DNA of 21,475 bases from a virus. Shown here piece by piece: positions 2,893 through 15,909 of this stretch (positions within the stretch are counted from its first letter, which is position 1; every line of letters starts with the position of its first letter). The position numbers and the translations under genes are program-made. The stretch is from IMG/VR virus record IMGVR_UViG_3300035180_000703, positions 1 through 21,475 of that record, one strand, 5' to 3'. A model generated the notes under the pieces. That model was not told the DNA's origin. It ran no database searches and was given only the letters and a program-made list of their open reading frames with translations.

Positions 2893-4074
2893 TTATTTGT
2901 ATTGTTTGCCATTAACATTAACTTCTAAATTACTATCAAGTTTCAACATCCTATCAATTATTACTTGACAATAGATAGGATCAATTTCCATTCCATAACA
3001 TTTTCTATCAAGTTGATGTGCGGCGACCATTGTTGTACCTGAACCCAAAAACAAATCTAATATTGTTTGATTAATTATACTAAAATGATTAATAAATTTA
3101 GCAACGAAAGAAATTGGCTTCTGATGCTTATGTATTGTGTGTTCGTCCTTTAATCTGAATCGATATTCCAACGGAATTATACTCGCCAAGCCGTCGTGCA
3201 GATTTTGGTGTTTCATTGCGTCGCCGTGTTTTTCCTGGCTAATCAAAATGTGTTGTAAATAAGGATCGTTGCCACGTGGACTTGAAAAACCAAAATTAGC
3301 AACGTAAAAACGTAAAAAGTCTAATTTAGAGTTCCTTAAATAATTAACAATACCTCGGTCGTCGTGCATTACAAATACGTGTGCATTTTCGCTGAATAAA
3401 AATATATTCACTGCATAACCCACGTCGTCCAAATCATAGGGTGGGTCAATGAATACCATATCCGCTTTGTTCCCATTCATAAGTTTCGCCACTTGTTCAC
3501 TATCCGTGCTATCACCACACATTAGACGATGGAGGGTTTGACCGTCTTTCTTAAATTCAATCAAATCACCAAGAACAATATTAGTTTGTATTGCTTCTGC
3601 TTCTGTAACTTCGTAGTCGTCCTCACTTGCTTCAAGTTTGGTATCAAATACCAGCGGTTCAAATTCCCATTCTTTCAAATTCAAATCAAATTCATTTGCC
3701 AAATCGTCAATGACTTCAAAATCAAAATCTATTCCTACTTTTGCTGTTTGATTGTCTGCTAATGCAAGTTCACGACCTTTCTTTGAGTTAATAGAAACGT
3801 CTTTTCGTTTAACTGCGATTATTTCGTTCCCGTCTGTTTCTATGATTTTAATGTTTTCCAATCCGATTTGTCCTGCAACTTCAATTACTCCATTGCCAGC
3901 AATAATATTATTGTCTTTATCTAACAAAATAGAACGCCCCGCACCTAATTTAGAAAGTGATTTTTCAAGTAGTCGCATTCCTTTTTCTGTGTGCTTATTT
4001 GCATTTTTAGTGTCAAACTTCAAATCTTTTATTGTCGCTTTATCCATTTTGCTTTCTTGTTTCATTTTGCCCAT
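2893..4074 (-). CDS. ParB-like domain fused to beta-class DNA methyltransferase
   Basis: This predicted S-adenosylmethionine-dependent DNA methyltransferase acts on adenine-N6 or cytosine-N4; the sequence alone does not say which. The first 120 or so residues form a ParB/Srx-like domain, with GAGRSILLDKDNNIIAGNG (45-63) and RELALADNQTAKVG (101-114). The methyltransferase domain follows from about 165: DPPY (210-213), HKHQKP (315-320), FLGSGTT (343-349) and GMEIDP (361-366). Having the catalytic DPPY before the cofactor-binding motif is the beta-class order. The fusion is common in phages, where it can modify phage DNA against host restriction or mark it for packaging. No partner nuclease is visible. 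The ATG at 4074 gives 393 residues. The ATG at 4065 (390 residues) is an attractive alternative because it overlaps the stop of a 22-codon frame as ATGA. Confidence 0.9.
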   Translation of the reverse strand: MGKMKQESKMDKATIKDLKFDTKNANKHTEKGMRLLEKSLSKLGAGRSILLDKDNNIIAGNGVIEVAGQIGLENIKIIETDGNEIIAVKRKDVSINSKKGRELALADNQTAKVGIDFDFEVIDDLANEFDLNLKEWEFEPLVFDTKLEASEDDYEVTEAEAIQTNIVLGDLIEFKKDGQTLHRLMCGDSTDSEQVAKLMNGNKADMVFIDPPYDLDDVGYAVNIFLFSENAHVFVMHDDRGIVNYLRNSKLDFLRFYVANFGFSSPRGNDPYLQHILISQEKHGDAMKHQNLHDGLASIIPLEYRFRLKDEHTIHKHQKPISFVAKFINHFSIINQTILDLFLGSGTTMVAAHQLDRKCYGMEIDPIYCQVIIDRMLKLDSNLEVNVNGKQYK

Positions 4075-4200: not shown

Positions 4201-4244
4201 TATTATTATATATATTATTATTTATATTATTATATTATATTATA
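4201..4244. repeat. 44-bp pure A/T run (possible DNA unwinding element)
   Basis: Every base from 4201 to 4244 is A or T, mostly in TAT/ATT triplets; C at 4245 begins the first 23-bp repeat. Even in this AT-rich genome such a run is notable. It could be a DNA unwinding element of an origin, a promoter upstream region, or simple low-complexity spacer. Confidence 0.6.
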
Positions 4245-4313
4245 CAATGGGTTGTTTCGCACCATTGGAATGGTCGGTTTCGCACCATTGGAATGGGTCG
4301 TTTTGCACCATTG
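4245..4313. repeat. Three tandem 23-bp repeats with inverted ends
   Basis: The units are 4245-4267, 4268-4290 and 4291-4313, head to tail without spacers. They share AATGG near the left end, a GTnGTTTnGCA-like middle and CCATTG at the right end, so each unit carries a short inverted repeat (AATGG / CCATT). At each junction the ends form CCATTGGAATGG. The 23-bp length is not a multiple of three and no believable protein crosses the array, so the repetition is not a coding effect. A related but shorter element (AATGG-TTT-CCATT) sits at 4119-4131. Iterons for a replication initiator or binding sites for a repressor are the likely roles. Confidence 0.8.
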
Positions 4314-4321
4314 ATGATTTT

Positions 4322-4362: not shown

Positions 4363-4761
4363 TTACGTTTTAACGTCAATTTTTTCTGTAACTATAATTT
4401 GTGTTAGAACGAGTAATAAGCGATAAAGTTCAAACGTTGAAAATTTTGTAATTTGTTTGGCGTCTCGGACAAGTGAATTAACTTTATCGTCTCCAATTTC
4501 ATTTCGTAATTTTTGTTCAAAGATTTGTAAATTACCTTGTTTCATTACGTTGCAAGTATTACATTGTGGGCGTGCGTTGTCAAAATTCCAACGTGTCGCA
4601 AAATAACGACGACTAATAAAATGTCCACATTGTAGTTCTTTAATTGGCAAAACTTGTCCGCACGTGTAACAGGTATTGAACCCGTCGGATGAATTGCGGT
4701 TACGAACAATGATTGAAAATAATCTATCAAGTTTCCCAATTAATTTATTTCTTGCATTCAT
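4363..4761 (-). CDS. ninG: NinG/Rap-like HNH-type recombination protein
   Basis: Lambda NinG (Rap) is a structure-specific endonuclease that resolves branched recombination intermediates. The 132-residue protein shows the family hallmarks: CYTCGQVLP with a zinc-binding pair (C31, C34), the core LQCGHFISRRYFATRWNFDN (43-62) with H47 as probable catalytic residue, and a second cysteine pair in QCNTCN (C67, C70) followed by KQGN. It is shorter than lambda NinG (about 200 residues), mainly lacking the N-terminal part, but the core is complete. The ATG at 4761 is the only methionine start. A TAATTTTG box ends only a few bases before it, so the transcript may be leaderless. It is the first gene of the leftward block and diverges from the capsid operon. 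Confidence 0.85.
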   Translation of the reverse strand: MNARNKLIGKLDRLFSIIVRNRNSSDGFNTCYTCGQVLPIKELQCGHFISRRYFATRWNFDNARPQCNTCNVMKQGNLQIFEQKLRNEIGDDKVNSLVRDAKQITKFSTFELYRLLLVLTQIIVTEKIDVKT

Positions 4762-4763
4762 AA

Positions 4764-4833
4764 TACAAAATTAACATTTATCAATACAGCAATTTTACGT
4801 AAATTTCTTTAATGGTTCGTATTTAATTTTGTA
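4764..4833. promoter_or_regulatory. Symmetric divergent control region (nested inverted repeats)
   Basis: The gap between the two divergent operons carries an 11-bp perfect inverted repeat, TACAAAATTAA at 4764-4774 and TTAATTTTGTA at 4823-4833. A perfect 10-bp palindrome, TTTACGTAAA, sits at 4794-4803. Both have the same dyad centre, 4798.5. Each outer arm contains TAATTTTG, which fits the TAnnTTTG -7 box known from Bacteroidota promoters, facing outward toward the NinG-type gene on the minus strand and the capsid operon on the plus strand. I find no convincing -33 TTG at the usual distance. The simplest reading is two mirror-image promoters around one dyad operator. Confidence 0.55.
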
Positions 4834-4854
4834 AAAAAATTATAAGTTAATATT

Positions 4855-5766
4855 ATGGAACTATGGGTAGACGTTTTTAAGACTGGCGAGCACACCGATA
4901 GTAGTGGCGACACGCAGACCTGGACTGAAAATGATTTAAACGAAATCGCAAATCTATATAACCACCAAAACCCCGACGAACAGCACCTCGCACCCGTGGT
5001 TTACGGGCACCCGTCAAGCGAGGATGCGGCGTTAGGTTGGGTTGAAAAGTTAAAAGTTGATGGCAACATATTAAAAGCTAAATTAGTTGATTTAAGCGAT
5101 CAACTAATTCAATCAATCAAGGACGGCGCTTATAAATTCCAATCAATCGCTTTGTATCCGAATAAGCTATTACGCCATCTTGGAATACTTGGAGCAGTGC
5201 CGCCAGCAGTAAAGGGTTTAAAGCCTTTATCCGAGTATTTCTCGGATAGCAAATTTCTTTTATTTGAATTTGCCGCAAACGATATTAATGACGTTGAGAA
5301 AATCAAGGAATACATCCGGCAAAAATACGGCGAAGATGACTATCAAATAATGTTGAAAGATTTATTATTATTAAAACCAGAGGATAACCAAATGGACACA
5401 ACAACACAAAATAACAATGTACCAGTAGATAACACACAAGCATTAAGTGAAGCACAATTTAGTGAGATGAATGCACGAATTAAAGAATTAGAAAGAAAGA
5501 ACGAGGAGTTGGCTTTTGATTTATTCTTTAACGAGTTAGCATTACAAGGTTATGTAATTCCAGCACAGAAGGAATTAATTAAGAGCATTGCAGTTCCAAA
5601 TTACCAATTTGGAGAAGGAAAAACACTACTTACAAATCTAACTGAATTAATTAAAACGTTTCCAAAACAAGTTGAATTTAAAGAAGTGGCAAAAGAAGCA
5701 CCACCAACCGACGAAATTGACGAACAGACTAAACTACTTGTAGACTTAATTAAGGGAGTAAAATAA
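4855..5766 (+). CDS. Prohead protease with C-terminal scaffold (Mu I protein-like)
   Basis: This protein is predicted to process and scaffold the procapsid. Residues 1-140 resemble Mu-like prophage I protein: WTENDLNEIANLYN (23-36), APVVYGHP (46-53, with H52 a candidate catalytic residue), AALGWVEKL (58-66), IKDGAYKFQSIAL (88-100, S97 the candidate nucleophile) and LGAVPPAVKGL (112-122). Residues 180-303 are polar with a short coiled-coil segment around 205-225 and probably act as scaffold. An internal ATG at 5392 in the same frame, preceded by AGAGGA, would give the scaffold part alone. This is the first gene of the rightward operon, 21 bases after the mirrored control element. Its stop overlaps the next start by one base. 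The fold assignment is firm; the catalytic residues are inferred. Confidence 0.85.
   Translation: MELWVDVFKTGEHTDSSGDTQTWTENDLNEIANLYNHQNPDEQHLAPVVYGHPSSEDAALGWVEKLKVDGNILKAKLVDLSDQLIQSIKDGAYKFQSIALYPNKLLRHLGILGAVPPAVKGLKPLSEYFSDSKFLLFEFAANDINDVEKIKEYIRQKYGEDDYQIMLKDLLLLKPEDNQMDTTTQNNNVPVDNTQALSEAQFSEMNARIKELERKNEELAFDLFFNELALQGYVIPAQKELIKSIAVPNYQFGEGKTLLTNLTELIKTFPKQVEFKEVAKEAPPTDEIDEQTKLLVDLIKGVK
5392..5766 (+). CDS. Possible nested scaffold protein (internal start of the protease gene)
   Basis: The ATG at 5392, codon 180 of the protease gene, is preceded by AGAGGA at 5379-5384 with a spacing of 7 bases, a better ribosome binding site than that of the full-length gene. It would produce a 124-residue protein beginning MDTTTQNNNV, consisting only of the acidic, partly coiled-coil C-terminal part. 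Nested scaffolds inside protease genes are established for Mu (I and Z) and lambda (C and Nu3). That background makes this internal start plausible, but the sequence cannot show that it is used. Confidence 0.5.
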   Translation: MDTTTQNNNVPVDNTQALSEAQFSEMNARIKELERKNEELAFDLFFNELALQGYVIPAQKELIKSIAVPNYQFGEGKTLLTNLTELIKTFPKQVEFKEVAKEAPPTDEIDEQTKLLVDLIKGVK

Positions 5767-6113
5767 TGAGCGATTTAGGGATTACAAACACTGGCAACAT
5801 CGGTGTAAGTAGTATTTTCTATAAGAATACCGATACTTATGAAATAAAGGGAACCATAGAAAGCGGACAAGGAGTGTTACCCGTTGGAACGGTATTAAGT
5901 AAGAACGTAGAAGGCACTAAATACATTAAGTGTACTGACACAACAAAAATTGAAGGTGTATTAGGTGAAGACGTTGACGCAACAAGTGGCGACGTTGCAA
6001 ACGTTGTAATTTACGTTCACGGACAATTCTTAACTAATAAATTAACAGCAGGCGTTGCATTAAGCGATGGTGCATATAAATACGGAACTTTAAATTTTAA
6101 ATCGGAGATATAA
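5766..6113 (+). CDS. Head decoration protein, lambda gpD-like
   Basis: Proteins of this family bind as trimers on the expanded capsid and stabilise it. The 115-residue product has the expected beta-rich pattern: PVGTVLSKN (39-47), IEGVLGEDVDATSGDVANVV (62-81) and a VHGQFLTNKLTAG block (about 84-96), in line with gpD-type proteins in length and motif order. The start ATG overlaps the protease stop by one base, and the major capsid gene starts two bases after its stop. The protease, decoration, capsid order is the one seen in lambda-like head modules. The call rests on pattern and context. Confidence 0.8.
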   Translation: MSDLGITNTGNIGVSSIFYKNTDTYEIKGTIESGQGVLPVGTVLSKNVEGTKYIKCTDTTKIEGVLGEDVDATSGDVANVVIYVHGQFLTNKLTAGVALSDGAYKYGTLNFKSEI

Positions 6114-6114
6114 A

Positions 6115-7134
6115 ATGGCAATTGATATGATAACAAACTGGCGGAGCTTAACAGCGGGTATAAATAGTTTCAATTCTCAACCTACATTTGCGTTGAAAAA
6201 TATCTTTCAAGCTACTGAAAATCACGCATCTGATATTATAGATTGGGAGGTTTGGACAAGGACTTCAAAATTAGCATCATTCGTTAATGATACAGAAAGC
6301 CCAGTACCGAGCTCCAAAGGAACAGGAGTTACTTATTCTGTAAAAATTCCAAAGACAGCAAATATTAAATTATTCACTGCGAAAGAATTAGCAGATTATA
6401 AAAGGCTCCAAGACGCTGGATACATACAGAATGCCAGCCAAAGACTGCAAGCACAAGCACAATTTGTAACTGACGAATTGAAATACGAGCAACTTGCAGT
6501 AATGCGGACACGTGAATATATGGCTATGAAATTACTTGTTGATGGCACATTAACCGCTGGCAACAATACAATCACTATGAATTACAGCACCAATAAGCAA
6601 ACATTCACATTAACAAGTGGGAATAAATGGAGCGATAACGGCGTTAACCCGTTAGATACAATTGATACCTACAAATCAACAATAATGAAGCGTTCAAATG
6701 CAGTTCCTAATATTTGCTTATTAGGCTCCAACGCCGCAACTTATTTCAAGAAAAACGACGATATTATTAAGCAATTAAACGCCAATAATTACCGCACTGG
6801 TGCATTAGACCTAACACAAGGTATCACAGAAGGTTCAGTAGTATTTTTAGGAACAATACGTGGAATTAGTTTCTTTGAATATTTAGGAACTTATGACGAC
6901 GGCGGTGTTGCAACAGATATTATGAACCCGAATAAGATATGTTTATTAGCCGTGGACGATTCATTCAGAATGCACCACGCACCGATTATTAAGACAGACG
7001 GTATATTCCAAGACGATATTTATGTTAGAGTTACCGAGGATCCGTACGGCAATTGGAAGAGTTGGACAATTGAACAAAAATCATTACCTATTGTTCATAA
7101 TAAAGATTTAGTTATTAGTGCAGTAGTAGTGTAA
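6115..7134 (+). CDS. Major capsid protein, lambda gpE-like
   Basis: This is the structural subunit of the icosahedral head. The 339-residue length matches lambda gpE (341). Features typical of the gpE family are the N-terminal ENHASDIIDWEVW region, an IPKTANIKLFTAKELADYKRL segment around 80-100, the helix LAVMRTREYMAMKLLVDGTL (about 125-145), and the C-terminal CLLAVDDSFRMHHAPIIKTDG followed by a YGNWKSWTIEQKSLPIVHNK ending. The spacing to the decoration gene is one base and to the gp36-like gene one base, so the whole head block is tightly coupled. A lambda-type capsid combined with a Mu-type portal and protease indicates mosaic origin. Confidence 0.88.
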   Translation: MAIDMITNWRSLTAGINSFNSQPTFALKNIFQATENHASDIIDWEVWTRTSKLASFVNDTESPVPSSKGTGVTYSVKIPKTANIKLFTAKELADYKRLQDAGYIQNASQRLQAQAQFVTDELKYEQLAVMRTREYMAMKLLVDGTLTAGNNTITMNYSTNKQTFTLTSGNKWSDNGVNPLDTIDTYKSTIMKRSNAVPNICLLGSNAATYFKKNDDIIKQLNANNYRTGALDLTQGITEGSVVFLGTIRGISFFEYLGTYDDGGVATDIMNPNKICLLAVDDSFRMHHAPIIKTDGIFQDDIYVRVTEDPYGNWKSWTIEQKSLPIVHNKDLVISAVVV

Positions 7135-7135
7135 T

Positions 7136-7528
7136 ATGTATATAACAAGTGATTATTTTATCAATATAATGACCGAAAGAGCAGTTGCTCAATTAACCGA
7201 TGATGTGAACGGGGAAACTATTAATACAGATTTAGTTAATCTTATTATTGCCAATCAATCGGAGTTAATTGATAATTATTTAAGGGGGCGTTATTTACTC
7301 CCCCTTAAAAATTCACATTATATTCTTAAAGCAATATGTTTTGATTTGACTAAGTACGAATTATACAAGCGGCGCAATGCGGTGAACGACGGCATCAAAG
7401 ATAGTTATATGCAAGCAACGAAACTATTAGAGGACATTAACACAGGAAAGATTATATTGAACGAAGACAATATGAGCCAATCATTCATTTATACAACTGA
7501 TAACTCGGTTTACACCAATGACTTATAG
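7136..7528 (+). CDS. Head-tail connector, Mu gp36-like (DUF1320)
   Basis: This is probably the adaptor ring below the portal. The 130-residue protein has the DUF1320 pattern: an N-terminal LTDD motif after a short helix, VNLIIANQSELIDNYLRGRY (34-53) followed by LLPL, then FDLTKYELYKRR and a C-terminal YMQATKLLEDINTGKIIL. The length is normal for the family. It starts one base after the capsid stop and overlaps the gp37-like gene by 11 bases. A perfect 10-bp inverted repeat lies inside the codons for YLRGRYLLPLK (7279-7309) and is listed separately. Confidence 0.85.
   Translation: MYITSDYFINIMTERAVAQLTDDVNGETINTDLVNLIIANQSELIDNYLRGRYLLPLKNSHYILKAICFDLTKYELYKRRNAVNDGIKDSYMQATKLLEDINTGKIILNEDNMSQSFIYTTDNSVYTNDL
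7279..7309. repeat. GC-rich 10-bp hairpin inside the gp36-like gene
   Basis: TTTAAGGGGG (7279-7288) pairs perfectly with CCCCCTTAAA (7300-7309) across an 11-base loop. It uses AGG GGG and CTC CCC codons in a gene that otherwise prefers A/T-rich codons. The core AGGGGG/CCCCCT is the same as in the tail terminator at 15125. It lacks a T-run on the plus strand, so it is not a simple terminator; RNA pausing, processing or translational attenuation are possible. Confidence 0.5.
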
Positions 7529-7901
7529 TGAAATAGAAAGTAGGATTATAGAAAGATTAAAGGAATATTTACCGGGTTACGAAGTTGTAAGTTATCCGAG
7601 CAGACCGGAGGACTTTCAATTCACGCACCCGCTGGCATCAATATTAGTGAAATTTCAAAGCACGCAATATGTGAAGCAAGCCGCAATGATTAATTATGAA
7701 GTTCACATTATTAGTAGAAGTCTAATTGGAGCAGAAGGCTATGATTTATTGGAGAAGACACGGGACATATTAACCAAAGACTTTGAATTAAACGGGACAA
7801 GATTTTATGTTGTTAGTGAACAACAATACGATTATTTGGACGGTAAATGGTTTTACCGTTTATCAATTAGTTTACCATTTTTAACATTTAAAGGATATTA
7901 A
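7518..7901 (+). CDS. Mu gp37-like (DUF1834) protein, probable tail terminator
   Basis: Proteins of this family sit at the head-tail junction and probably cap the tail tube. The 127-residue product starts MTYSEIESRIIERLKEYLPG and shows a basic, alternating beta pattern including ILVKFQSTQYVKQAAMINYE (42-61) and the C-terminal GKWFYRLSISLPFLTF, as expected for gp37-like proteins. It overlaps the gp36-like gene by 11 bases and is the last clear head/neck gene before the lysis block. The assignment relies on pattern and on following DUF1320 directly, as in Mu. Confidence 0.75.
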   Translation: MTYSEIESRIIERLKEYLPGYEVVSYPSRPEDFQFTHPLASILVKFQSTQYVKQAAMINYEVHIISRSLIGAEGYDLLEKTRDILTKDFELNGTRFYVVSEQQYDYLDGKWFYRLSISLPFLTFKGY

Positions 7902-7922
7902 AAAAAATATAAAGGTAAAAAA

Positions 7923-8258
7923 ATGAAAAAAACATTAAGTGATATAATTAGCTTTATTACAAGGCACGCAGTGTGGATAACTGCAATTCTATTAGGATTG
8001 GCAGTATTAAGTCCATTTTTGGAAATCTATAATAAAGTAATTATTATTGTAATCTTACTAGGCGTTGCGTTAGGTTGGTCTAATCTTGCAGTATTTTCAT
8101 TCACAAAGATTAATCTAACCAAAAAAATAATGTCCGGGGATGATGGTGCATCCTCTCAATCGGAGCAGATAGCAACAGCGATTATTATTGCTGGAATACT
8201 ATTAGGTGTTCATATTTTAGTAGGATTAGCATTTTACATCTTGACTTTAAATGTTTAG
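7923..8258 (+). CDS. Three-span membrane protein, candidate holin
   Basis: The 111-residue protein has hydrophobic segments at about 15-31, 38-58 and 84-107, with a polar loop (KINLTKKIMSGDDGASSQSE) between the second and third. Size and topology fit a class I holin, which would form lesions in the inner membrane and time lysis. I recognise no specific holin family. Its stop overlaps the start of the endolysin gene by 8 bases, which is the strongest argument for a lysis role. AAAGG lies upstream of the ATG. Because the downstream endolysin carries its own signal peptide, the holin need only be of the pinhole or timing type (inference). Confidence 0.55.
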   Translation: MKKTLSDIISFITRHAVWITAILLGLAVLSPFLEIYNKVIIIVILLGVALGWSNLAVFSFTKINLTKKIMSGDDGASSQSEQIATAIIIAGILLGVHILVGLAFYILTLNV

Positions 8259-8826
8259 ATACGTAAAACATATTGCACTATTGGTAATTATTCTTGCTAA
8301 TGTTGTATATTCACAACAGCGGTATGAATTACCAACCCTTTATGATACGAATTTGCCAAGAATACAATTAGCAGAAACACAATTAGGAATAAGAGAGGAA
8401 ACGAATGCTCGGATTATACGTGGATATTTACAAAGTGTAAATATCTATACGAACGCCTCTTGGTGTAACGCATTCCAATATTGGCTAATGGATTCAGTTT
8501 GCAGAAAGTTACAAATTATAAACCCAATGCCAAAAAGTGGTTTGGCAAATTCAAGTTACGATTATGCAATAAGAAAAGGGAATAGAACTACATTTATTCC
8601 ACAGCCCGGAGACTTAATCGTGTGGCGAACCGAGGGTAAGTGGACAGGACACGTAGGATTAATAATACAGACACGCAATCAAGCAAGCGTAATAACAATT
8701 GAAGGTAACACCTCGAGTAATTCTTTTAGAACGGGCGGTTGTGTATGGAAAAAGGTAAGATTGACTAACCATCCGATTGGTAAGCATTTACTCAGAGGTA
8801 TCGTTGGCTTTAAATCACAATTTTAG
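8251..8826 (+). CDS. Secreted CHAP/NlpC-type endolysin
   Basis: This is a predicted peptidoglycan amidase or endopeptidase. Residues 1-21 form a Sec signal (basic FRYVKH, hydrophobic core IALLVIILANVV, likely cleavage after YS). The catalytic domain has NASWCNAFQYWL with C72 as nucleophile, QPGDLIVWR (118-126), TGHVGLI with H134 and TIEGNTS with N153 completing the triad. These are the CHAP-domain signatures. Residues 30-60 (PRIQLAETQLGIREETNARI) form the helix that usually precedes this domain. The gene overlaps the candidate holin by 8 bases. A signal-bearing endolysin can be exported without a large holin pore and released or activated at lysis time. Confidence 0.85.
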   Translation: MFRYVKHIALLVIILANVVYSQQRYELPTLYDTNLPRIQLAETQLGIREETNARIIRGYLQSVNIYTNASWCNAFQYWLMDSVCRKLQIINPMPKSGLANSSYDYAIRKGNRTTFIPQPGDLIVWRTEGKWTGHVGLIIQTRNQASVITIEGNTSSNSFRTGGCVWKKVRLTNHPIGKHLLRGIVGFKSQF

Positions 8827-8835
8827 TCGTAGAAA

Positions 8836-9144
8836 ATGGAAACAACTAACATAATATTTTGGGCGTTTAATGGACTGGCGGTCGGTATCTTTACCATAAT
8901 GGCGTATTTATTGAAAAACGTCTTTGAAGGCGTTAAAAAAGAATTGGCAGAATTAAAAGTAGTGATGAACGCACTACTCGAATTCGTAGCTATTCAGAAG
9001 GAAAAGAACAGCCATTATGGGCAAGAAATTAATGATATTTGGCATAAAATTAATACCATAGAAACAAAGCAAGAACAACACATTGAGTTAATCAATAAAA
9101 TGAAAAATACACATAATTTAGTTCACCCGGACAAGAAGGTATAA
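8836..9144 (+). CDS. Small membrane-anchored coiled-coil protein
   Basis: The 102-residue product has one N-terminal membrane segment (about 6-27) followed by a charged helical region with heptad-like spacing (about 30-92), such as ELAELKVVMNALLEFVAIQK. I do not recognise a family. Similar layouts occur in phage lysis accessory proteins (XhlA-type haemolysin-like proteins, holin partners), and it lies nine bases after the endolysin, so a role in lysis is reasonable but unproven. There is no clear Shine-Dalgarno sequence. The next gene starts two bases after its stop. Confidence 0.6.
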   Translation: METTNIIFWAFNGLAVGIFTIMAYLLKNVFEGVKKELAELKVVMNALLEFVAIQKEKNSHYGQEINDIWHKINTIETKQEQHIELINKMKNTHNLVHPDKKV

Positions 9145-9145
9145 A

Positions 9146-9442
9146 GTGACAATATTAGGTAAAGAATATGAAATAATAGAAGCAGACGCTACAATAATGA
9201 ATGATAAAGTAGGCATCTGTGAATTTACAAAACAAAAGATTTACATTGCAACAGGATTAGCAGACGATTTATACGCTGATACATTATTGCACGAAATTTT
9301 ACACGTAATTGATTTTACAATTGGATTAGAACTTACAGAAAAACAAGTTATAGGAATTGCTGGGGGGTTGTATGCAGTGTGGAAAGACAACCAAAACGTT
9401 ATAGAGGGTATCAACAAGGAAAATAAGAAAAAAGTAAAATGA
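9146..9442 (+). CDS. Small putative metallopeptidase with HExxH motif
   Basis: The 98-residue protein starts with GTG two bases after the previous stop. It contains LLHEILHVID (47-56), an HExxH zinc site (H49, E50, H53) followed by GLELTEKQVIGIAGGLYAVW. This short domain occurs in many phage genomes as a putative ImmA/IrrE-like or related metallopeptidase. The third zinc ligand is not obvious; D56 or an acidic residue in the ELTEKQ helix are candidates. There is no signal peptide, so it should act in the cytoplasm. The substrate is unknown. Its stop and the next start overlap as ATGA, linking it to the cysteine protein. Confidence 0.65.
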   Translation: MTILGKEYEIIEADATIMNDKVGICEFTKQKIYIATGLADDLYADTLLHEILHVIDFTIGLELTEKQVIGIAGGLYAVWKDNQNVIEGINKENKKKVK

Positions 9443-9663
9443 AATACGAAACAGACATAATACCGACTTGTCATACGTGCATACACTGGCGTTATATTGG
9501 CGTTCACCGTGGAACGTGTCAGTCCGACGAATTCCAAGTAGTAACAGGCTACGATAAGAAGCACTATGTAACAACAAGGCAAGACTTTTTCTGTGCGGCT
9601 TATAGTCCAAACAGCGAATTAATTGATGACATAATTAAGGTTGAAAATGACGACGACGAATAA
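9439..9663 (+). CDS. Small four-cysteine protein, probable zinc binder
   Basis: This is a 74-residue protein of unknown function. CHTCIHW (11-17), C27 and C52 provide four cysteines that could bind one zinc ion, and the C-terminus is strongly acidic (ENDDDE). I recognise similar short CxxCxxW phage proteins but no named function. It overlaps the HExxH gene by four bases (ATGA) and runs into the next gene by 17 to 23 bases, so it is embedded in a coupled run. Nucleic-acid or protein binding is possible, but the sequence does not decide. Confidence 0.6.
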   Translation: MKYETDIIPTCHTCIHWRYIGVHRGTCQSDEFQVVTGYDKKHYVTTRQDFFCAAYSPNSELIDDIIKVENDDDE

Positions 9664-10126
9664 AGTATTAACAATAGTTATATTATTAGCATCGGTTGTA
9701 ATTATTATACTGGCTTTTCTTTTTGGAGAACGTAATTTTAAGTTGCACGAAGCGTTGAATAACCCAGTAGTGACAATAACGGTTCGTGATACAATTTATA
9801 GTGATAAGATTGATACATTCAAAGTAGGTTACCCAGTCGTCAAGACTATTTATAAAGAAAAAATTGATACTATAACAATTACACGAGCGTTCGAAAAGTC
9901 TATTGATACAACATTCATTGATAGTTCACGTTTGCAAGTTGTTTATATGTTTCCGCAGGACACGTTCAAGATTAAGTTACAAACTCGGATTAAAGAAATT
10001 TTTCAAAAAGACACGATAAAAACTTACATTGAAATTCCAAAGCAGAAAGATTATACAACCCCGCTCATATATGGTGGCAGTGGATTAATTTTAGGCATAA
10101 TCGGAGGGGTATTAATAGCTAAATGA
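9647..10126 (+). CDS. Two-membrane-segment protein, spanin-like
   Basis: From the ATG at 9647 (AAGG at 9637-9640) the protein has 159 residues; an in-frame TTG at 9641 would add two. It has a membrane segment at about 6-28 and a second at the very C-terminus, about 139-157 (GGSGLILGIIGGVLIAK). Between them lies a roughly 110-residue, probably beta-rich domain with repeated DT pairs (VRDTIY, KIDTF, KIDTITI, SIDTTF, KDTIKTY). Spanins join inner and outer membranes in the last step of lysis of Gram-negative hosts. Known unimolecular spanins have an N-terminal lipoprotein signal plus a C-terminal span, but here there is no cysteine at all. It sits after the endolysin genes, which favours a lysis role. 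A structural membrane protein remains possible. Confidence 0.55.
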   Translation: MTTTNKVLTIVILLASVVIIILAFLFGERNFKLHEALNNPVVTITVRDTIYSDKIDTFKVGYPVVKTIYKEKIDTITITRAFEKSIDTTFIDSSRLQVVYMFPQDTFKIKLQTRIKEIFQKDTIKTYIEIPKQKDYTTPLIYGGSGLILGIIGGVLIAK

Positions 10127-11067
10127 AAAGCAAAACACAGATATTGCAAGAATATATTAATCAATATCCAGAACTGGGACATAGTCCATTGGCAAAACTA
10201 ATCATTAACGAGGTGTCCGAATTCCAAAACGACGAGGTGGACGTGTTAAGAAAAGTAGTTTCTTTTATGCGAGATGGTGGTGTTGAAAATGATTTTTTTG
10301 AGGATGTGGATACTGAATTAGATATTCCTGAAAGTTGGTACAACGACCCCGAAAAATTTGAGTTTGAAGGGAAAGTAGCTATCATAAATGATTTACACAT
10401 TCCATTCCACGATAAATACGCACTTAAAACAGCAATTGATTATTTAATCAAATACAGCCCGGACGTTGTTGTTTTGAATGGCGACGTTGGCGATTATTAC
10501 GCAAATAGTAGGTTTGTTAGAGACCCGAATTTAAGAAATTTGGCAAAAGAAATAGAGATACTTAATCAATTTTTGGATTATTTACAAGGCAAATTCACAA
10601 AAATCGTGTACAAAGAAGGCAATCACGAGGAAAGATTATATGATTATATTTCTTTGAAGGCGCCGGAACTTGGTGATATTGAAGGGGTTAAATTACAGAA
10701 CTTATTAAGATTGGAGCAAAGAAACATAATTTTTGTTGACAATCGGAGTAGAATTAAGATAGGAAAATTAAGCGTAATCCACGGGAATGAAATACCAGCA
10801 GGTGGAATAATTAACGTTGCAAGAACAAAAATAATACGTGCAATGGGAAACGTTTTATTTGGTCACCACCACGTTACACAGGATTTTACACAACGCACTA
10901 TTGACGAAAAAGTAATCGGTGCGTGGTCGGTAGGGTGTTTATGTGGTTTATCACCTCGCTTTTCCAAGTTCAATAGTTGGAATCACGGGTTTGCAATAGT
11001 TGAAACTGAAAGCAACGGAAATTTTGAAGTTCAAAACAAGAAAATTGTAAATGGACGGGTGGTGTAA
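10123..11067 (+). CDS. Calcineurin-like metallophosphoesterase
   Basis: This is a 314-residue metal-dependent phosphoesterase with the complete motif series: NDLHIP (89-94, D90 and H92), NGDVGD (119-124, D121), EGNHEE (165-170, N167 and H168), IHGNE (219-223, H220) and GHHH (247-250). The substrate cannot be read off; nucleic acids, cyclic nucleotides, and nucleotide or protein phosphates are all used in this superfamily. Residues 1-80 are an unassigned helical extension (TQILQEYINQYPELGHSPLA) that may recognise substrate. There is no signal peptide. ATGA overlap couples it to the spanin-like gene. It may serve phage DNA metabolism or host takeover (inference). Confidence 0.85.
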   Translation: MKSKTQILQEYINQYPELGHSPLAKLIINEVSEFQNDEVDVLRKVVSFMRDGGVENDFFEDVDTELDIPESWYNDPEKFEFEGKVAIINDLHIPFHDKYALKTAIDYLIKYSPDVVVLNGDVGDYYANSRFVRDPNLRNLAKEIEILNQFLDYLQGKFTKIVYKEGNHEERLYDYISLKAPELGDIEGVKLQNLLRLEQRNIIFVDNRSRIKIGKLSVIHGNEIPAGGIINVARTKIIRAMGNVLFGHHHVTQDFTQRTIDEKVIGAWSVGCLCGLSPRFSKFNSWNHGFAIVETESNGNFEVQNKKIVNGRVV

Positions 11068-11364
11068 ATGAAAGCAGGTAAATATAACATAGACGCTTAT
11101 TACAATAGAGATTATGTTCAAGTCTTTGAATTTGATATTGATATAAGTAATTATGCATTTGCGGGCTCCATAGATTATAAAGGCAATAAAATAAATTTCA
11201 CAATTACGAAACTAACAAATACACAGATACAAGTTGTATTAGATAAATCAATTTTATCACAAATGGTGCCGGGTGTGTATTCTTATGATATTAAAATGAA
11301 TGACGGGTTTGATTTGCAAGTAATTGAAGGGAGTTTCAAGGTAAACAACACAATTACTAATTAG
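11068..11364 (+). CDS. Small beta-rich virion-associated protein
   Basis: This 98-residue protein starts directly after the phosphoesterase stop. It appears to be all beta: an N-terminal YVQVFEFDIDIS strand pair and a C-terminal half with VPGVYSYDIKMNDGFDLQVI followed by EGSFKV. The ending resembles the common YDL-x-DG-x-LLEG-T-V-V motif of small phage baseplate or fibre-associated proteins, so a place in the virion is likely. I cannot name the exact role. It opens the block of surface-protein genes that runs to 14446. Confidence 0.55.
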   Translation: MKAGKYNIDAYYNRDYVQVFEFDIDISNYAFAGSIDYKGNKINFTITKLTNTQIQVVLDKSILSQMVPGVYSYDIKMNDGFDLQVIEGSFKVNNTITN

Positions 11365-11373
11365 AGGGACAAA

Positions 11374-11829
11374 ATGCAGGTTCTTATAACAGAAGAGAAA
11401 TTAAACGTAAATACATACGATAAAATAAACGTTAAAATTGGCGATGTAATTAGTTTAGTTGCAGGACAAGGTGTAAGCCAAATTAACACAATTGTAAAAA
11501 GTTATAAATGTGGCGAAGCAATCGGAGGGCATAAAGTAGTCTATTTAGAAGGTGATAAAATTTATATTGCGGATTATTTAAATTTGAACATTGTTAATAA
11601 GATTGTTGGAGTAACAAGACAAGCGGGCAATGCAGGTGATTATGTTGAAGTCGTTATTTTTGGTGAAATTGTTTATGATTTTGCAACAAGTGCAGGCGAT
11701 TATTATTTATTCACTGCTGGTACTTTACAAACTGCAATTGCAAACAATGGAATTATTGTTAAAATAGGAAAATACGTTCAAGATAAAGTTTTATTTATTG
11801 AAATTGGCGAATATATTATTAGAAATTAA
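11374..11829 (+). CDS. Virion surface protein, paralog of the next gene
   Basis: This is a 151-residue beta-rich protein. Central GEAIGGHKVVYLEGDKIYIA (48-67), NKIVGVTRQAGNAGDYVEVV (75-94) and FGEIVY resemble a small domain common in phage fibre-associated and decoration-like proteins. The C-terminal third (AGDYYLFTAGTLQTAI to KVLFIEIGEYIIR) lines up with that of the next protein, suggesting duplication of one gene. GAGGG at 11363-11367 lies 6 bases before the start. A fibre attachment or capsid decoration role fits the position, but no function is known. Confidence 0.6.
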   Translation: MQVLITEEKLNVNTYDKINVKIGDVISLVAGQGVSQINTIVKSYKCGEAIGGHKVVYLEGDKIYIADYLNLNIVNKIVGVTRQAGNAGDYVEVVIFGEIVYDFATSAGDYYLFTAGTLQTAIANNGIIVKIGKYVQDKVLFIEIGEYIIRN

Positions 11830-11844
11830 TTAAAGGATAAAAAA

Positions 11845-12357
11845 ATGGCTGACAAATATGTTTATTTAGGAACAACAGGACTCGCAGAAAAAGCCGCAAC
11901 AACAGCAAGTGCGGGCGTTGCTGATGCAGGTAAGATAGTAGCATTAGGTGGTGACGGATTATTAGATGTAAGCGTAATGCCAACGGGTATTGGAGCAGAT
12001 ACAAGGGTTGCCGTTGCAAGTGAAAACTTGAACGCAGGAGATTTAGTCAATCTATATAATAATTCCGGCGTTATAACAGCAAGGAAAGCAGACGCAACGG
12101 GTGGAATTGCTAAACAAGCTGACGGGTTCGTAATATCGGCAGTTTCAAGCGGACAAAACGCAACGGTTTACTTTGATGGCACAATTACAGGATTAAGTGG
12201 ATTAACACCCGGAGCAATCTATTATTTAAGCACAACGGCGGGTGGAATAACAACTACTATTCCTACAACAACAGGTTATATTGCACAAATTGCAGGAAAA
12301 GCATTAAGTGCAACTGAATTAACTTTTGAACCGGGCGAGCCTATTGTCCGAGCTTAA
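11845..12357 (+). CDS. Virion surface protein, paralog with fibre-like N-terminus
   Basis: This is a 170-residue protein. The body (DTRVAVASENLNAGDLVNLY to VYFDGTITGL) and the tail (PGAIYYLSTTAGGITTTIPT to ELTFEPGEPIVRA) align by eye with the preceding protein, so they share a fold. The N-terminus KYVYLGTTGLAEKA matches KVITLGTNGLQEAN of the large fibre encoded next, at DNA as well as protein level, and reads like a shared attachment peptide. The stretch GKIVALGGDGLLDVSVMP is typical of phage fibre linkers. AAAGGA precedes the ATG. It is likely part of, or bound to, a tail or neck fibre. Confidence 0.6.
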   Translation: MADKYVYLGTTGLAEKAATTASAGVADAGKIVALGGDGLLDVSVMPTGIGADTRVAVASENLNAGDLVNLYNNSGVITARKADATGGIAKQADGFVISAVSSGQNATVYFDGTITGLSGLTPGAIYYLSTTAGGITTTIPTTTGYIAQIAGKALSATELTFEPGEPIVRA

Positions 12358-12370
12358 AAGAAGGTAAAAG

Positions 12371-13399
12371 ATGGCAAAAGTAATTACATTAGGAACAAAC
12401 GGACTACAAGAAGCCAATTTAAGCGTTGGTGAAGCCGTCAATATTCAAGCATTGACAGCAGACAAAACACTAACAGCGACGGATGCTCCTATTCAAATTT
12501 ACACAATGACTGCTAATAGAACAGTCAATTTACCAACGACTGGTCTAACCAGTGGTCAAAAATTTGAAATTTGGAATAAGAACGCATACAACAGCACTTA
12601 TTATTTAACAATCCAACAAGGCTCGACGACAATATACAATTTAACTTCACAATCCGAAATTGAATTAAGATGGGATGGAGCAAATTGGATACCTACTTTT
12701 AATCAAAATGTTGCAATTGGGTATGGTACAGATTCAAATTATAGTAACGGCACAGGAGTAGGTAACGGTGCGAGTAATAATTTTAATTTCGGCACAGGAA
12801 TTGGTGCTTATGCGAATTGCAATAATGATCACGGCGTAGGAGTAGGTTCTGGTGCGAGTAATAATTATAATTCCGGCACAGGAATAGGTGATAGTGCTAC
12901 TGCGAACAGCAAGCAGGATAATACAATCGCAATAGGTGCACATTCAAGAGCGGAGCGCAATAGAGAACTTGTATCAACAGCAACAACAAGCATACCAAAC
13001 AAGGCACAACTCACATTTCAAAAGTTTCAAGAAACAGATTTAGCAAGTAACAGCGGGGCATGGCAAGAATTATTTATCGACGGTTCAAGTGCAAGATTAA
13101 CAATTATTGCAAGTTCTGTGTATCAATTTAAGATACAGATTAATGCAATTGATAAAACAACATTTGATGTTAAAACTTGGAAAGTAGAAGGCACGATAAA
13201 AAGAAATGGTTCAAATGTAACAAGTATTGTTGGAGCGGTAATAAAGACAATCATCGCCGCTGATACAGCTACTACTAACTGGGATGTGCAAGTAACCGCC
13301 GATGATACCAATGAGGATTTAAAAATTGAAGTGAAACACGACTCAGCAAATCAAGTAAGATTTAGTTTAAATGTATTTGCAACTGAAACAAGGATTTAA
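12371..13399 (+). CDS. Fibre with YadA-like beta-roll repeats
   Basis: This 342-residue putative receptor-binding or surface fibre begins with the shared LGTNGLQE motif (7-14). A beta domain follows (about 30-110, with ANRTVNLP and WDGANWIP typical of phage fibres). Residues 112-192 hold about five 14-residue repeats of the form TGIG-x(2)-A-x(7), as in the trimeric left-handed beta-roll of YadA and Hep/Hag adhesin heads. The C-terminal domain (about 200-342) is beta-rich, with KAQLTFQKFQETDLASNSGA and an ending SLNVFATETRI, similar to jelly-roll tips. The repeats suggest a trimer. Residues 134-174 carry a near-perfect 84-bp DNA duplication. Host surface adhesion is inferred. Confidence 0.7.
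   Translation: MAKVITLGTNGLQEANLSVGEAVNIQALTADKTLTATDAPIQIYTMTANRTVNLPTTGLTSGQKFEIWNKNAYNSTYYLTIQQGSTTIYNLTSQSEIELRWDGANWIPTFNQNVAIGYGTDSNYSNGTGVGNGASNNFNFGTGIGAYANCNNDHGVGVGSGASNNYNSGTGIGDSATANSKQDNTIAIGAHSRAERNRELVSTATTSIPNKAQLTFQKFQETDLASNSGAWQELFIDGSSARLTIIASSVYQFKIQINAIDKTTFDVKTWKVEGTIKRNGSNVTSIVGAVIKTIIAADTATTNWDVQVTADDTNEDLKIEVKHDSANQVRFSLNVFATETRI
12751..12918 (+). repeat. 42/84-bp coding repeats of the fibre beta-roll
   Basis: The 14-residue protein repeats correspond to 42-bp DNA units. Units one and three are nearly identical at DNA level, from GGTGCGAGTAATAATT at 12767 and again at 12851, exactly 84 bp apart. This suggests recent duplication of a two-unit block, and therefore a length that could vary by slippage or recombination. 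Confidence 0.7.
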
Positions 13400-13402
13400 A
13401 AA

Positions 13403-13699
13403 ATGGCTTTAAAAAACAACACCACGGGTGAATATTTAAAAATAATAAGTTTTCAGTTTGATTTTCAAGCGGGCAATCATCATATTAGCTATTTAATATT
13501 TGCTAATGTAGAACAAAGACAACGCTTTGATGCGGGCTTGTCCGAGTACGAAACTTATAAACACGGACAATACAACGGCATTGGAGTAATTAACGATGCA
13601 CTTAATTTAACAGCAACAGGGAACGCAAAAGACGCAATTTTTAATACCTGTTACACGGCTCTAAAAAATGATATGTTCAAAGATTGGATAGATGCGTAG
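13403..13699 (+). CDS. Hypothetical phage protein in the fibre block
   Basis: This 98-residue protein starts three bases after the fibre stop and ends directly before the next ATG. It has a beta-strand N-terminus (EYLKIISFQFDFQAGNHHIS) and a helical C-terminal half (VINDALNLTATGNAKDAIFN to WIDA). I recognise no family, and there is no signal or membrane segment. Its place between two fibre genes suggests a chaperone or accessory structural subunit for them, but that is only context. Confidence 0.5.
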   Translation: MALKNNTTGEYLKIISFQFDFQAGNHHISYLIFANVEQRQRFDAGLSEYETYKHGQYNGIGVINDALNLTATGNAKDAIFNTCYTALKNDMFKDWIDA

Positions 13700-14446
13700 A
13701 TGGCAAAACTATTTCAAATATTGGACACTTCAAACGGGCAACAGGGATTAAAAAGTCTTACTGGTGCTGATATTGGTATTGATACTACGAACTTTAATCA
13801 CAATTTAAATAATGTAGATACAAATATACAGACAGCATTAGATACAATTGATGATTTGGCTATTGATAAAGTAAAAGCAAGTTCAAGCGACACTAACAGC
13901 GGGTATTTAATTGATAAATTAAGCAGTACAGGTATAATTGGAATAAACGCAATTCACAATCAAGTAAATTTAAATGTTGAATTGCCGGTAATTACAGAAG
14001 TAATTCAAGACAACGCCTGGTATAATTGCGGAACAAAAGTTTTACGAACTTTTCCAGAAAATACTAATTTGGAAATTGGAAAGAAATATTTAATGACTTT
14101 TAACTTTGTCATATTTGCCGGGGGTGATTGGAACGGTTTATTTTCGGAGGTGTGCAGTCTAACATATACAGAAAATGGAGTTGAATATTTAGTTAGTAGT
14201 CACGATTATAGTTATTCATTCTATAATGTATTACAAGGGTGTCTCAAAACAACTACGTGTTTTGATTTGCAATTCATAGGAACTGGATTTGTTCTGCAAG
14301 GTTCAAAAGTAATTACAGCAGAAGACGTGGGCGGGGTTGGAAAAGTTCAATTATATTTCACAATTTATAACGGACATCCGCAATGGAGAATTTATAGTGC
14401 AGATACTTATATGAATTTTATTGAATTTATAAAAATTAAAGAATAA
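13700..14446 (+). CDS. Fibre-like structural protein
   Basis: This is a 248-residue protein. The N-terminal part contains TNFNHNLNNVDTNIQTALDT (31-50), a pattern very common in the stalks of phage fibres (DTNVQAALDTLD-like). The rest (from about 110, with VLRTFPENTNLEIGKKYLMT and YNGHPQWRIY) is beta-rich and contains three cysteines in the middle. It may be a tip domain of a second fibre. It starts on the base after the upstream stop. Unlike the beta-roll fibre it has no repeats. A role in host contact is inferred. Confidence 0.55.
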   Translation: MAKLFQILDTSNGQQGLKSLTGADIGIDTTNFNHNLNNVDTNIQTALDTIDDLAIDKVKASSSDTNSGYLIDKLSSTGIIGINAIHNQVNLNVELPVITEVIQDNAWYNCGTKVLRTFPENTNLEIGKKYLMTFNFVIFAGGDWNGLFSEVCSLTYTENGVEYLVSSHDYSYSFYNVLQGCLKTTTCFDLQFIGTGFVLQGSKVITAEDVGGVGKVQLYFTIYNGHPQWRIYSADTYMNFIEFIKIKE

Positions 14447-14467
14447 ATGTTAAACAAAACAATTGAT

Positions 14468-14472
14468 GGAGG
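14468..14472 (+). promoter_or_regulatory. Strong ribosome binding site (GGAGG) fixing the tail tube start
   Basis: GGAGG at 14468-14472 lies 5 bases before ATG 14478. The upstream in-frame TTG (14463) and ATG (14466) have no such site and would place it inside the gene, so 14478 is the likely start. It is one of the strongest sites in the window, fitting a highly expressed protein. Confidence 0.7.
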
Positions 14473-14477
14473 TTATT

Positions 14478-15113
14478 ATGGGCGCAAGTTCACCAGCAAT
14501 GAATAAGGTTGCGTTTTTCCGTGCAAATTACAATGGCACAAATTGGTCAATCTATAAGACATTGACCGGAACAGCAACAGCAGCAACTCCTGCCGATGCA
14601 GGATACATACTTACAGGACTTATTGAGGAAGGTAAATATGATTACCAAGAAGACGGAACATTGAAAGTGTCGTGGACACAATACAATGACGACGAAACAT
14701 TTTACAACTTTCTAGATGTTGTTGCTCCAGTTACACAAACAAGCAGTAGTAGAAGCAGTAAGAATATGGAAGATGGTTCCAAGCTATCAGGCGATGCAGC
14801 ATCAGGCGATTTTGTTATTATGCTCGCTTATACAACGGTAGCTAATAATAAAGTCAAGACAATCGCCGCAGTTGGAAATATTGCCAAAACGTCGGGTTCG
14901 TTCGGGACAAAATACGATGACTGGGCATCGCCAACGTTAGAATTCACATCAGCACTTACACAAGCCGATTTAAGTATACCGGCAGGACTATTTGATGTTT
15001 ATGATGCAACAAATAATAGTGGTGGTATATTAGCAGCATCAGCAGTGTCAGGGGCACAAGTAATACTCAACAAGACCTCGTATTTGCGTAAATATTTCAC
15101 TAAAAAATCATAA
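14478..15113 (+). CDS. Major tail tube protein
   Basis: This predicted subunit stacks as rings to form the non-contractile tail tube. From the ATG at 14478 it has 211 residues, a normal size. The pattern is typical: an N-terminal SPAMNKVAFFRANY, then a mixed region with GLIEEGKYDYQEDGTLKVSW, a long low-complexity loop (TQTSSSRSSKNMEDGS, about 86-101) and a beta-rich second half with AYTTVANNKVKTIAAVGNIA. Its position just before the overlapping chaperone frames and the tape measure gene, and the following terminator, are classic for this gene. The fold assignment rests mainly on this context; no tail sheath gene is visible. Confidence 0.75.
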   Translation: MGASSPAMNKVAFFRANYNGTNWSIYKTLTGTATAATPADAGYILTGLIEEGKYDYQEDGTLKVSWTQYNDDETFYNFLDVVAPVTQTSSSRSSKNMEDGSKLSGDAASGDFVIMLAYTTVANNKVKTIAAVGNIAKTSGSFGTKYDDWASPTLEFTSALTQADLSIPAGLFDVYDATNNSGGILAASAVSGAQVILNKTSYLRKYFTKKS

Positions 15114-15124
15114 TTAAAATCACA

Positions 15125-15149
15125 AGGGGGGATTAAACCCCCTCTTTTT
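15125..15149 (+). terminator. Rho-independent terminator after the tail tube gene
   Basis: AGGGGG (15125-15130) pairs with CCCCCT (15138-15143) around a 7-base loop, followed by CTTTTTA. It lies in the 58-bp gap between the tail tube and tail chaperone genes, where many siphoviruses place a partial terminator to make far more tube protein than tape measure protein. Confidence 0.8.
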
Positions 15150-15171
15150 ATTAACTTAAAAACAAAGAGAG

Positions 15172-15627
15172 ATGGAAACTAAACTTTATATTAAGGACGA
15201 CGATTATATTACGTTGCCTTTGAAACGTCCTACAATGCAGGTTAAAGACGCTTTATTGAAACTAAATTTAGAGTTTGCAAACGAGCAAAAAAAGATTATG
15301 TCCAATGATAAATTCAAGGATATAAAGACAATACAAGAAGCGTTAATTAATTCAGAAAAGGGAACTAATTCAATTGAAACACTATCAATCATTAACACGC
15401 CTGAGAATGCAGTATTAATAGAGGAATTTACACTTGCAACACAGAAAATTATTGATGAATTTCTATTAAAGAAATTCAAAGAAGTAATTAATGCCAAATC
15501 AATTGACGACCCAGAAGTCAAAAAACAATTTGAAAGCTCGGTAAATAGTGCGTTTTGGAAAAACCAAGATTTAGGGGAGGTGAACGACGCACTCAATTAC
15601 TTTCGCACAAAACTTGGAATTGGATAA
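15172..15627 (+). CDS. Tail assembly chaperone, G-like
   Basis: This 151-residue acidic, helical protein lies between the tail tube and tape measure genes, the invariable place of tail assembly chaperones, which coat the tape measure during tube growth. It has a lambda G-like length (140) but no sequence motif I can name. The N-terminus YIKDDDYITLPLKRPTMQVK looks like the short beta part of these proteins. AGAGAG precedes the ATG. The next frame overlaps its 3' end and lacks an ATG, so a minority product continuing into that frame is likely. Confidence 0.7.
   Translation: METKLYIKDDDYITLPLKRPTMQVKDALLKLNLEFANEQKKIMSNDKFKDIKTIQEALINSEKGTNSIETLSIINTPENAVLIEEFTLATQKIIDEFLLKKFKEVINAKSIDDPEVKKQFESSVNSAFWKNQDLGEVNDALNYFRTKLGIG
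15601..15606 (+). other. Candidate +1 programmed frameshift site (TTT CGC)
   Basis: Codon 144 of the G-like gene is TTT followed by CGC. A phenylalanine tRNA moving one base forward would pair with TTC and enter the second chaperone frame, which is open from 15584. The fused product would have about 241 residues. A -2 slip elsewhere in 15584-15627 would give the same frame, and I see no classic Mu-type -2 heptamer. The location is right, but the exact site is a guess. Confidence 0.3.
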
Positions 15628-15898
15628 TGAAAAGATAAAATACGTGCGAGAATTCCCAGTATTTGAAGTTCTAAAAACAAAAGCAAAGAAAGAGAAAAAA
15701 TCGTATTATAATACATTCAATCTATTACCCAACGAGGATTACGGAGATTATGAAGCACAACTTTATTACCATAAAGCGTTGTGCTGGATGTTGGCGGAGA
15801 ATGACTACAAGAAATTTGACGACTTATATAATAATTTCCCAGAAGGTGAAATTTGGGAAATGATAGGTATAATGAATGCAGTTAACTATATTCCATAA
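15614..15898 (+). CDS. Tail assembly chaperone, T-like downstream frame
   Basis: This frame is +1 relative to the G-like gene, open from 15584 and closed at 15898. There is no ATG near its beginning; only TTG at 15614 or 15620 could start it, giving 94 or 92 residues. It contains a helical, aromatic-rich domain (EFPVFEVLKTKAKKEKKSYY to WEMIGIMNAVNYIP). In lambda and many siphoviruses such a frame is read only as a G-T fusion made by frameshifting, and the fusion recruits tail tube protein. Independent translation from TTG by coupling is the alternative. It ends 11 bases before the tape measure gene. Confidence 0.7.
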   Translation: MELDNEKIKYVREFPVFEVLKTKAKKEKKSYYNTFNLLPNEDYGDYEAQLYYHKALCWMLAENDYKKFDDLYNNFPEGEIWEMIGIMNAVNYIP

Positions 15899-15909
15899 GA
15901 GGTGAGAAA

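Follow-up and report, generated by a model that had tools for sequence, protein, structure and literature searches.

Predicted twin late promoters around a shared central dyad, probably under one regulator, in an uncultured phage whose head genes are Mu-type

In phage P2, late genes are divided between two divergent promoters, pP and pO, so that the P/Q terminase and portal genes are transcribed leftward and the genes from the O/N scaffold-protease and capsid onward are transcribed rightward. The annotated starts lie at 3016 (leftward) and 3127 (rightward), and a single activator site at 3057-3087 serves both promoters; its centre (3072) is 0.5 bp from the midpoint of the two starts (3071.5). 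One stretch (4381-4398) likewise serves both promoters in the P2-like phage Smp131 (PMC3931495). In phage Mu, late control is exerted by C at Plys, PI, PP, and Pmom and by Mor at Pm, through separate sites, one per promoter. Mu Mor recognizes 5-bp inverted repeats within a 16-bp element at -43.5, which replaces the -35 element (PMC4390567). Among Bacteroidota, sigma-A promoters of Flavobacterium have the consensus TAnnTTTG at -12 to -5 (PMC9723704), a motif that is also the -7 consensus of the Bacteroides primary sigma factor (PMC7366714). We found no description of late gene control in Bacteroidota-lineage phages in the literature searched.

We analyzed a viral contig of 21,475 bases, hereafter the window, from an uncultured phage that has Mu-type head genes and probably originates from Bacteroidota or their relatives. 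A divergent intergenic control region of 93 bp and 16% G+C (4762-4854, no strand) separates two operons. Leftward, on the minus strand, are encoded a NinG/Rap-type junction endonuclease as the first gene (4363-4761; PF05766, E 1e-11; phrog_5034), a ParB-like/DNA methyltransferase (2893-4074; PF01555, phrog_498), the terminase small subunit (2480-2857; phrog_309), the terminase large subunit TerL (1201-2508; PF17289, PF03237), and a Mu-type portal protein (3-1199; PF06074, E 1e-82), which runs off the contig. Rightward, on the plus strand, the first gene encodes a Mu gene I-like head maturation protease/scaffold (4855-5766; phrog_976, E 2e-49, with a PF10123 match just under the cutoff), followed by a head decoration protein (5766-6113; PF02924), major capsid protein E (6115-7134; PF03864, E 2e-38), and the remainder of the right late operon (7136-21432), namely Mu gp36/gp37-like head-tail genes, an endolysin, and tail and tape measure genes. 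The GC and AT skews change sign near 5 kb, which fits the switch of coding strand. We consider it likely, with a probability of roughly 0.68, that 4762-4854 contains twin late promoters governed by a common regulator.

A first-pass annotation had proposed twin promoters under a single dyad-binding regulator, which would couple packaging/recombination genes to capsid genes. The divergent operons were borne out; the left operon is really a terminase/portal late operon, in which NinG is just the first gene. Because distant relatives (L108, L036, L041, and L111) carry extra genes, including a methyltransferase-like one, between the control region and the terminase, the left late operon takes in cargo. 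Two repeat arrays were also observed in the window. At 12737-12890, 42-bp tandem repeats (3.7 copies) encode a repeated segment of a putative fibre-like protein. Behind NinG, at 4201-4314, an AT-rich stretch and three 23-bp repeats (AATGGGTCGTTTCGCACCATTGG) are about 83% identical to the iterons and AT-rich DNA within the O-like replication gene of a close relative (L031:6871-7028) and form a second, intergenic origin-like array; L003 has different repeats there.

The control region is organized around one axis. The left outer arm TACAAAATTAA (4764-4774, minus strand) is the exact reverse complement of the right outer arm (4823-4833, plus strand), and these arms share the centre 4798.5 with a 10-bp palindrome, TTTACGTAAA (4794-4803, no strand), which we propose to be the shared regulator site. 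Each arm carries a box, TAATTTTG, that faces its own operon, at 4773 down to 4766 on the minus strand and at 4824-4831 on the plus strand. The palindrome lies in a 21-bp core, AGCAATTTTACGTAAATTTCT (4788-4808, no strand), within which an imperfect 16-bp dyad (4791-4806) has seven of its eight pairs matched. Every coordinate of the 11-bp inverted repeat, the palindrome, and their common centre given in the first-pass annotation was thus confirmed, as were the boxes on the outer arms.

Such symmetry might have arisen by chance, because short repeats alone are cheap in a gap of only 16% G+C: 46% of dinucleotide shuffles of the 93-bp gap contained a 10-bp palindrome, and 1.4% contained an arm of at least 11 bp. 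An arm and a palindrome on one centre, however, occurred in only 0.02% of shuffles (a joint probability of about 2e-4). Two TAnnTTTG boxes pointing outward at a distance of 40-75 bp were found in 0.2%. When the arms were held fixed, a 10-bp palindrome fell exactly on their centre in 0.3% of shuffles and within 3 bp of it in 1.8%. These tests are post hoc, having been picked once the feature was seen, and the independent support comes from conservation in relatives: the same blocks are invariant in 11 relatives, and mirror arms recur in other lineages. We regard coincidence as barely credible here. Single-strand folding of the gap was no better than that of shuffles (z -0.5), so that a hairpin role is not favored, and an Rfam search of the window gave no match.

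Eleven contigs of 86-92% nucleotide identity carry the same control region. Of its 93 sites, 79 were invariant in 12 related sequences, compared with 50% of third codon positions in the protease gene. The invariant sites form three blocks (4766-4778, 4788-4808, and 4822-4839) with variable stretches between them; in the 12 sequences, invariance was 95% in the core and 91 and 100% in the arms (11 of 11 sites in the right arm), and 64-67% in the spacers. The core is the longest invariant run of the gap, and the distance from arm to core is fixed in these relatives, with no insertions or deletions between blocks. Beyond the -7 box, the symmetry is kept less than strictly: L009 alters position 4765 on one arm with no matching change on the other. 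In L009 and L014, one additional base separates the box from the NinG ATG. Three contigs of 80-83% identity (L033, L034, and L010) stop just short of the region or are without it. A scan of viral contigs for the arm-core-arm pattern with loose spacing returned 13 contigs, 11 of which were these relatives; the other two matches (L026 and L028) were rejected as chance, as they lie inside coding sequence on contigs unrelated to the phage. Beside this nearly constant control region, NinG comes in two alleles, with about 95% and about 66% identity to that of the window (L002, L003, L005, L006, and L011 compared with 4363-4761), and the small terminase and methyltransferase genes likewise differ as whole blocks.

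TAATTTTG fits TAnnTTTG, the Bacteroidota -7 promoter box, on both strands. The window contains 39 occurrences of TAnnTTTG, which is about the chance number. The closest relatives of the window TerL in named bacterial genomes (47% identity) are in Ignavibacteria/Kapabacteria MAGs; in the test set of Ignavibacteria/Kapabacteria/Bacteroidetes (FCB) loci carrying related phages, TAnnTTTG occurred upstream of genes 71 times in the sense and 35 times in the antisense orientation, against 24 ± 5.6 in shuffles, that is, it was threefold enriched and strand-biased. TATAAT was not enriched upstream of genes in these loci, and TAnnTTTG was not enriched in Paenibacillus/Xenorhabdus-type host loci (6 versus 10 in shuffles). 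E. coli-type promoters and terminators were not clearly above shuffles. With the -7 box placed at -12 to -5 (PMC9723704), transcription is predicted to start at 4761 on the minus strand and at 4836 on the plus strand, the latter with a 19-nt leader. Because position 4761 is the A of the NinG ATG, the NinG mRNA is predicted to be leaderless. The palindrome spans -42 to -33 relative to both predicted starts, and since these are only 75 bp apart, two polymerases may not fit simultaneously. The -33 element TTTG is absent at the N19 position, where AAAT (+) and AAAA (-) are found; we therefore call the region promoter-like, and its dependence on an activator is something we infer. The twin divergent promoters suggested in the first-pass annotation gained support from the box on each arm, its enrichment upstream of genes in DNA of the probable host lineage, the three-block conservation, and mirror arms of changed sequence in distant relatives; they stand as a prediction.

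The more distant phages (TerL about 47% and protease 35-38% identical) keep the divergence of terminase/portal from protease/capsid genes, across longer gaps of 265-305 bp. The dyad of the window is absent from these gaps. Mirror-image promoter arms of different sequence are found instead in at least three, and probably four, further lineages, around lineage-specific repeats. In the lineage of L197, L200, L201, L202, L204, and L205, both outward arms read GTGC[AT]TTT-N20-T[AT]nnTTTG, and 0-4 of 300 shuffles were as good. L206 has CTACTT.TGATA in both arms (0 of 300 shuffles) and a TTTG-N19-TAATTTTG promoter on its right side, the two arms of L213 agree at 32 of 38 bases (0 of 100 shuffles), and the mirror arms of L043 are weaker. 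For L197, L201, and L043 (as L208), arms were found by the box-anchored test, while the unanchored test picked other repeats or nothing; for L203, mirror arms were found in neither test. The repeats between the arms comprise 13-bp iterons in L040, 12-bp repeats in L043, a repeated CCGTCGATTCGACGG palindrome in L206, and TTCTGCAAA repeats in L213. Relatives that keep the coding sequences without the symmetry had been named in the first-pass annotation as evidence against its reading; close relatives keep the dyad, and distant ones have a symmetry of their own in other sequence. Neither twin boxes nor, for the most part, mirror arms were present in divergent loci of G+C-rich or other hosts (L219, L226, L232, L245-L252, and others). 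In L254, L255, and L313, GAAC[CG]GTTC repeats lie between a leftward gene and the protease gene, and TAnnTTTG twin boxes are absent.

Arm-to-arm agreement was 15-22 of 28 bases within lineages and averaged 8.7 (maximum 13) between lineages; the within-lineage arms are best pairs, so that their similarity is inflated, and the shuffles were given the same choice while the between-lineage comparison was not. Among 120 permutations of the arms of five lineages, the true pairing alone reached the observed sum. Because agreement within lineages exceeds agreement between them, the alignments indicate that both arms have changed together between lineages. Joint change suggests one regulator per phage for both operons, and it is not predicted by two independent promoters. 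The first-pass idea of a single regulator for both operons, here still putative, thus gains from the joint arm change and from the precedent of P2. Repeated joint change also provides natural covariation data on the sequence read by each regulator.

These comparisons bear on whether the region might hold two ordinary constitutive promoters back to back, with a core that is just a pair of adjoining -33 elements and is bound by no dedicated regulator. At both promoters the core does cover position -33, a -7 box present twice in outward orientation already makes an inverted repeat, and the rightward promoter of relatives has TTT[AGT] at -33, 19 bp from the box. The sequences at the -33 positions of the window are not TTTG, however, and the core is exactly palindromic on the shared centre and invariant across 21 bp. 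In the relatives, moreover, the mirrored element extends upstream of -33 (GTGC, CTAC) and differs from lineage to lineage while remaining alike on both arms. We judge a constitutive pair to be unlikely.

A position in the gap preceding the packaging operon could also suggest that the palindrome is no promoter element and serves in packaging (pac/cos), replication, or recombination, all the more as iterons resembling those of the O-like gene lie nearby (4246-4314). Against this, the arms are promoter boxes whose position and orientation track the two gene starts across lineages, the iterons form a separate array behind NinG, and the small terminase gene is 2 kb away, which makes such a site very improbable.

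As the regulator of the predicted twin promoters, we propose an 85-aa Mor/C-family protein encoded in the early operon of close relatives, a candidate whose odds we place just short of even. A Mor-family protein of 85-87 aa is encoded by the last gene of the early operon in L031, L034, and L190; it matched PF08765 at 25.5-26.5 bits in these three contigs, just above the cutoff of 24.9, and phrog_836 ("late transcriptional activator") at E 2e-7. The contig of L190 carries both this gene and the dyad. Among distant relatives, the L108, L111, and L039 contigs also have Mor-like genes, and the L213 contig has a weak match; most partial contigs of the other lineages gave none. The structure model of the Mor-like protein (pLDDT 78) has a C-terminal helix-turn-helix; in a fold search, Mu Mor (1rr7) was a weak match (rank 14, E 1.7), and a sequence search of solved structures gave no real match. 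The divergent neighbour in L340 was Mor-like by eye, and a 60-residue fragment of this protein gave no Pfam match. No match to an Ogr/Delta zinc-finger activator was seen among the scanned early proteins of the close relatives, in a scan not aimed at Ogr.

The dyad could also be thought of as a repressor operator that silences both late operons early or in lysogeny. Its centre, at about -37.5, is roughly half a helical turn from the Mor position and over -33; at both promoters the dyad intrudes on the -33 region, a classical repressor position, and would also suit a repressor, and both -7 boxes match the consensus. On the other side, the -33 elements are poor, and the sole transcription regulator recognized in the early region visible in the close relatives belongs to an activator family. 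No further copies of the dyad were found in the window or in the early region of these relatives, and a lysogeny repressor should have a site in that region as well; the palindrome occurs once per contig. We infer activation rather than repression, and regard an operator as distinctly improbable.

Our reading of the region as predicted twin late promoters under one regulator is based on the geometry, the conservation, the joint arm change, and the Mor-family gene in close relatives. Two outward promoters for the host primary sigma factor, whose -7 boxes are good and whose -33 elements are poor, would flank the central dyad, and a phage-encoded dimer would bind this dyad within the 21-bp core, at an equal distance from both predicted starts. 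The bound dimer may replace the missing -33 contacts at both promoters, so that the packaging/portal genes leftward and the protease/capsid/tail genes rightward would be switched on together, and the shared dimer would keep late expression of the two operons balanced. The small palindrome thus resembles one common switch for every late gene visible here. If this reading is true, a short symmetric sequence would govern these genes across an uncultured phage group and keep packaging and capsid expression in step, and late control in Bacteroidota-lineage phages would gain a testable site and a testable activator.

We also put forward, tentatively and at less than even odds, that Bacteroidota-lineage phages with Mu-type heads generally have their twin late promoters arranged as mirror images, a design in which the regulator and its site are lineage-specific and the two sites are matched. 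In the lineage of the window, the sites would have collapsed into one dyad bound by a Mor/C-family protein. Such a design would be convergent with the Ogr-controlled pP/pO of P2, and two phage groups would have arrived at the same divergent late switch via unrelated activators.

Compared with Bacteroidota sigma-A (ABfr) promoters, both arms of the window have a perfect -7 TAnnTTTG (PMC9723704, PMC7366714), whereas the -33 TTTG at the spacing of relatives is replaced by a shared palindrome. The likeness to Mu lies in the Mor/C-family protein encoded in close relatives, in the rightward promoter upstream of a gene I homologue, as with Mu PI, and in a dyad that stands in place of the missing -35 element (PMC4390567, PMC4461284). 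Mu has separate sites, whereas the window has a single dyad between its two predicted divergent late promoters, about 6 bp nearer the start than the Mu Mor site. With P2, the window shares the same gene split, and its one dyad lies exactly midway between the predicted starts, where P2 has one annotated Ogr site. The P2 site is at -55.5, whereas the window dyad is at about -37.5, and the arms are mirror images in sequence in the window but not in P2. The P2 activator is the zinc-finger protein Ogr, while the candidate here is a Mor-type protein, and P2 has E. coli-type promoters and P2-type head genes in place of Bacteroidota-type boxes and Mu-type head genes. By analogy, the region may work like pP/pO, a likeness of function that we do not extend to membership of the P2-type class: the layout is known from P2, whereas the promoter type, the distance, the head genes, and probably the activator differ.
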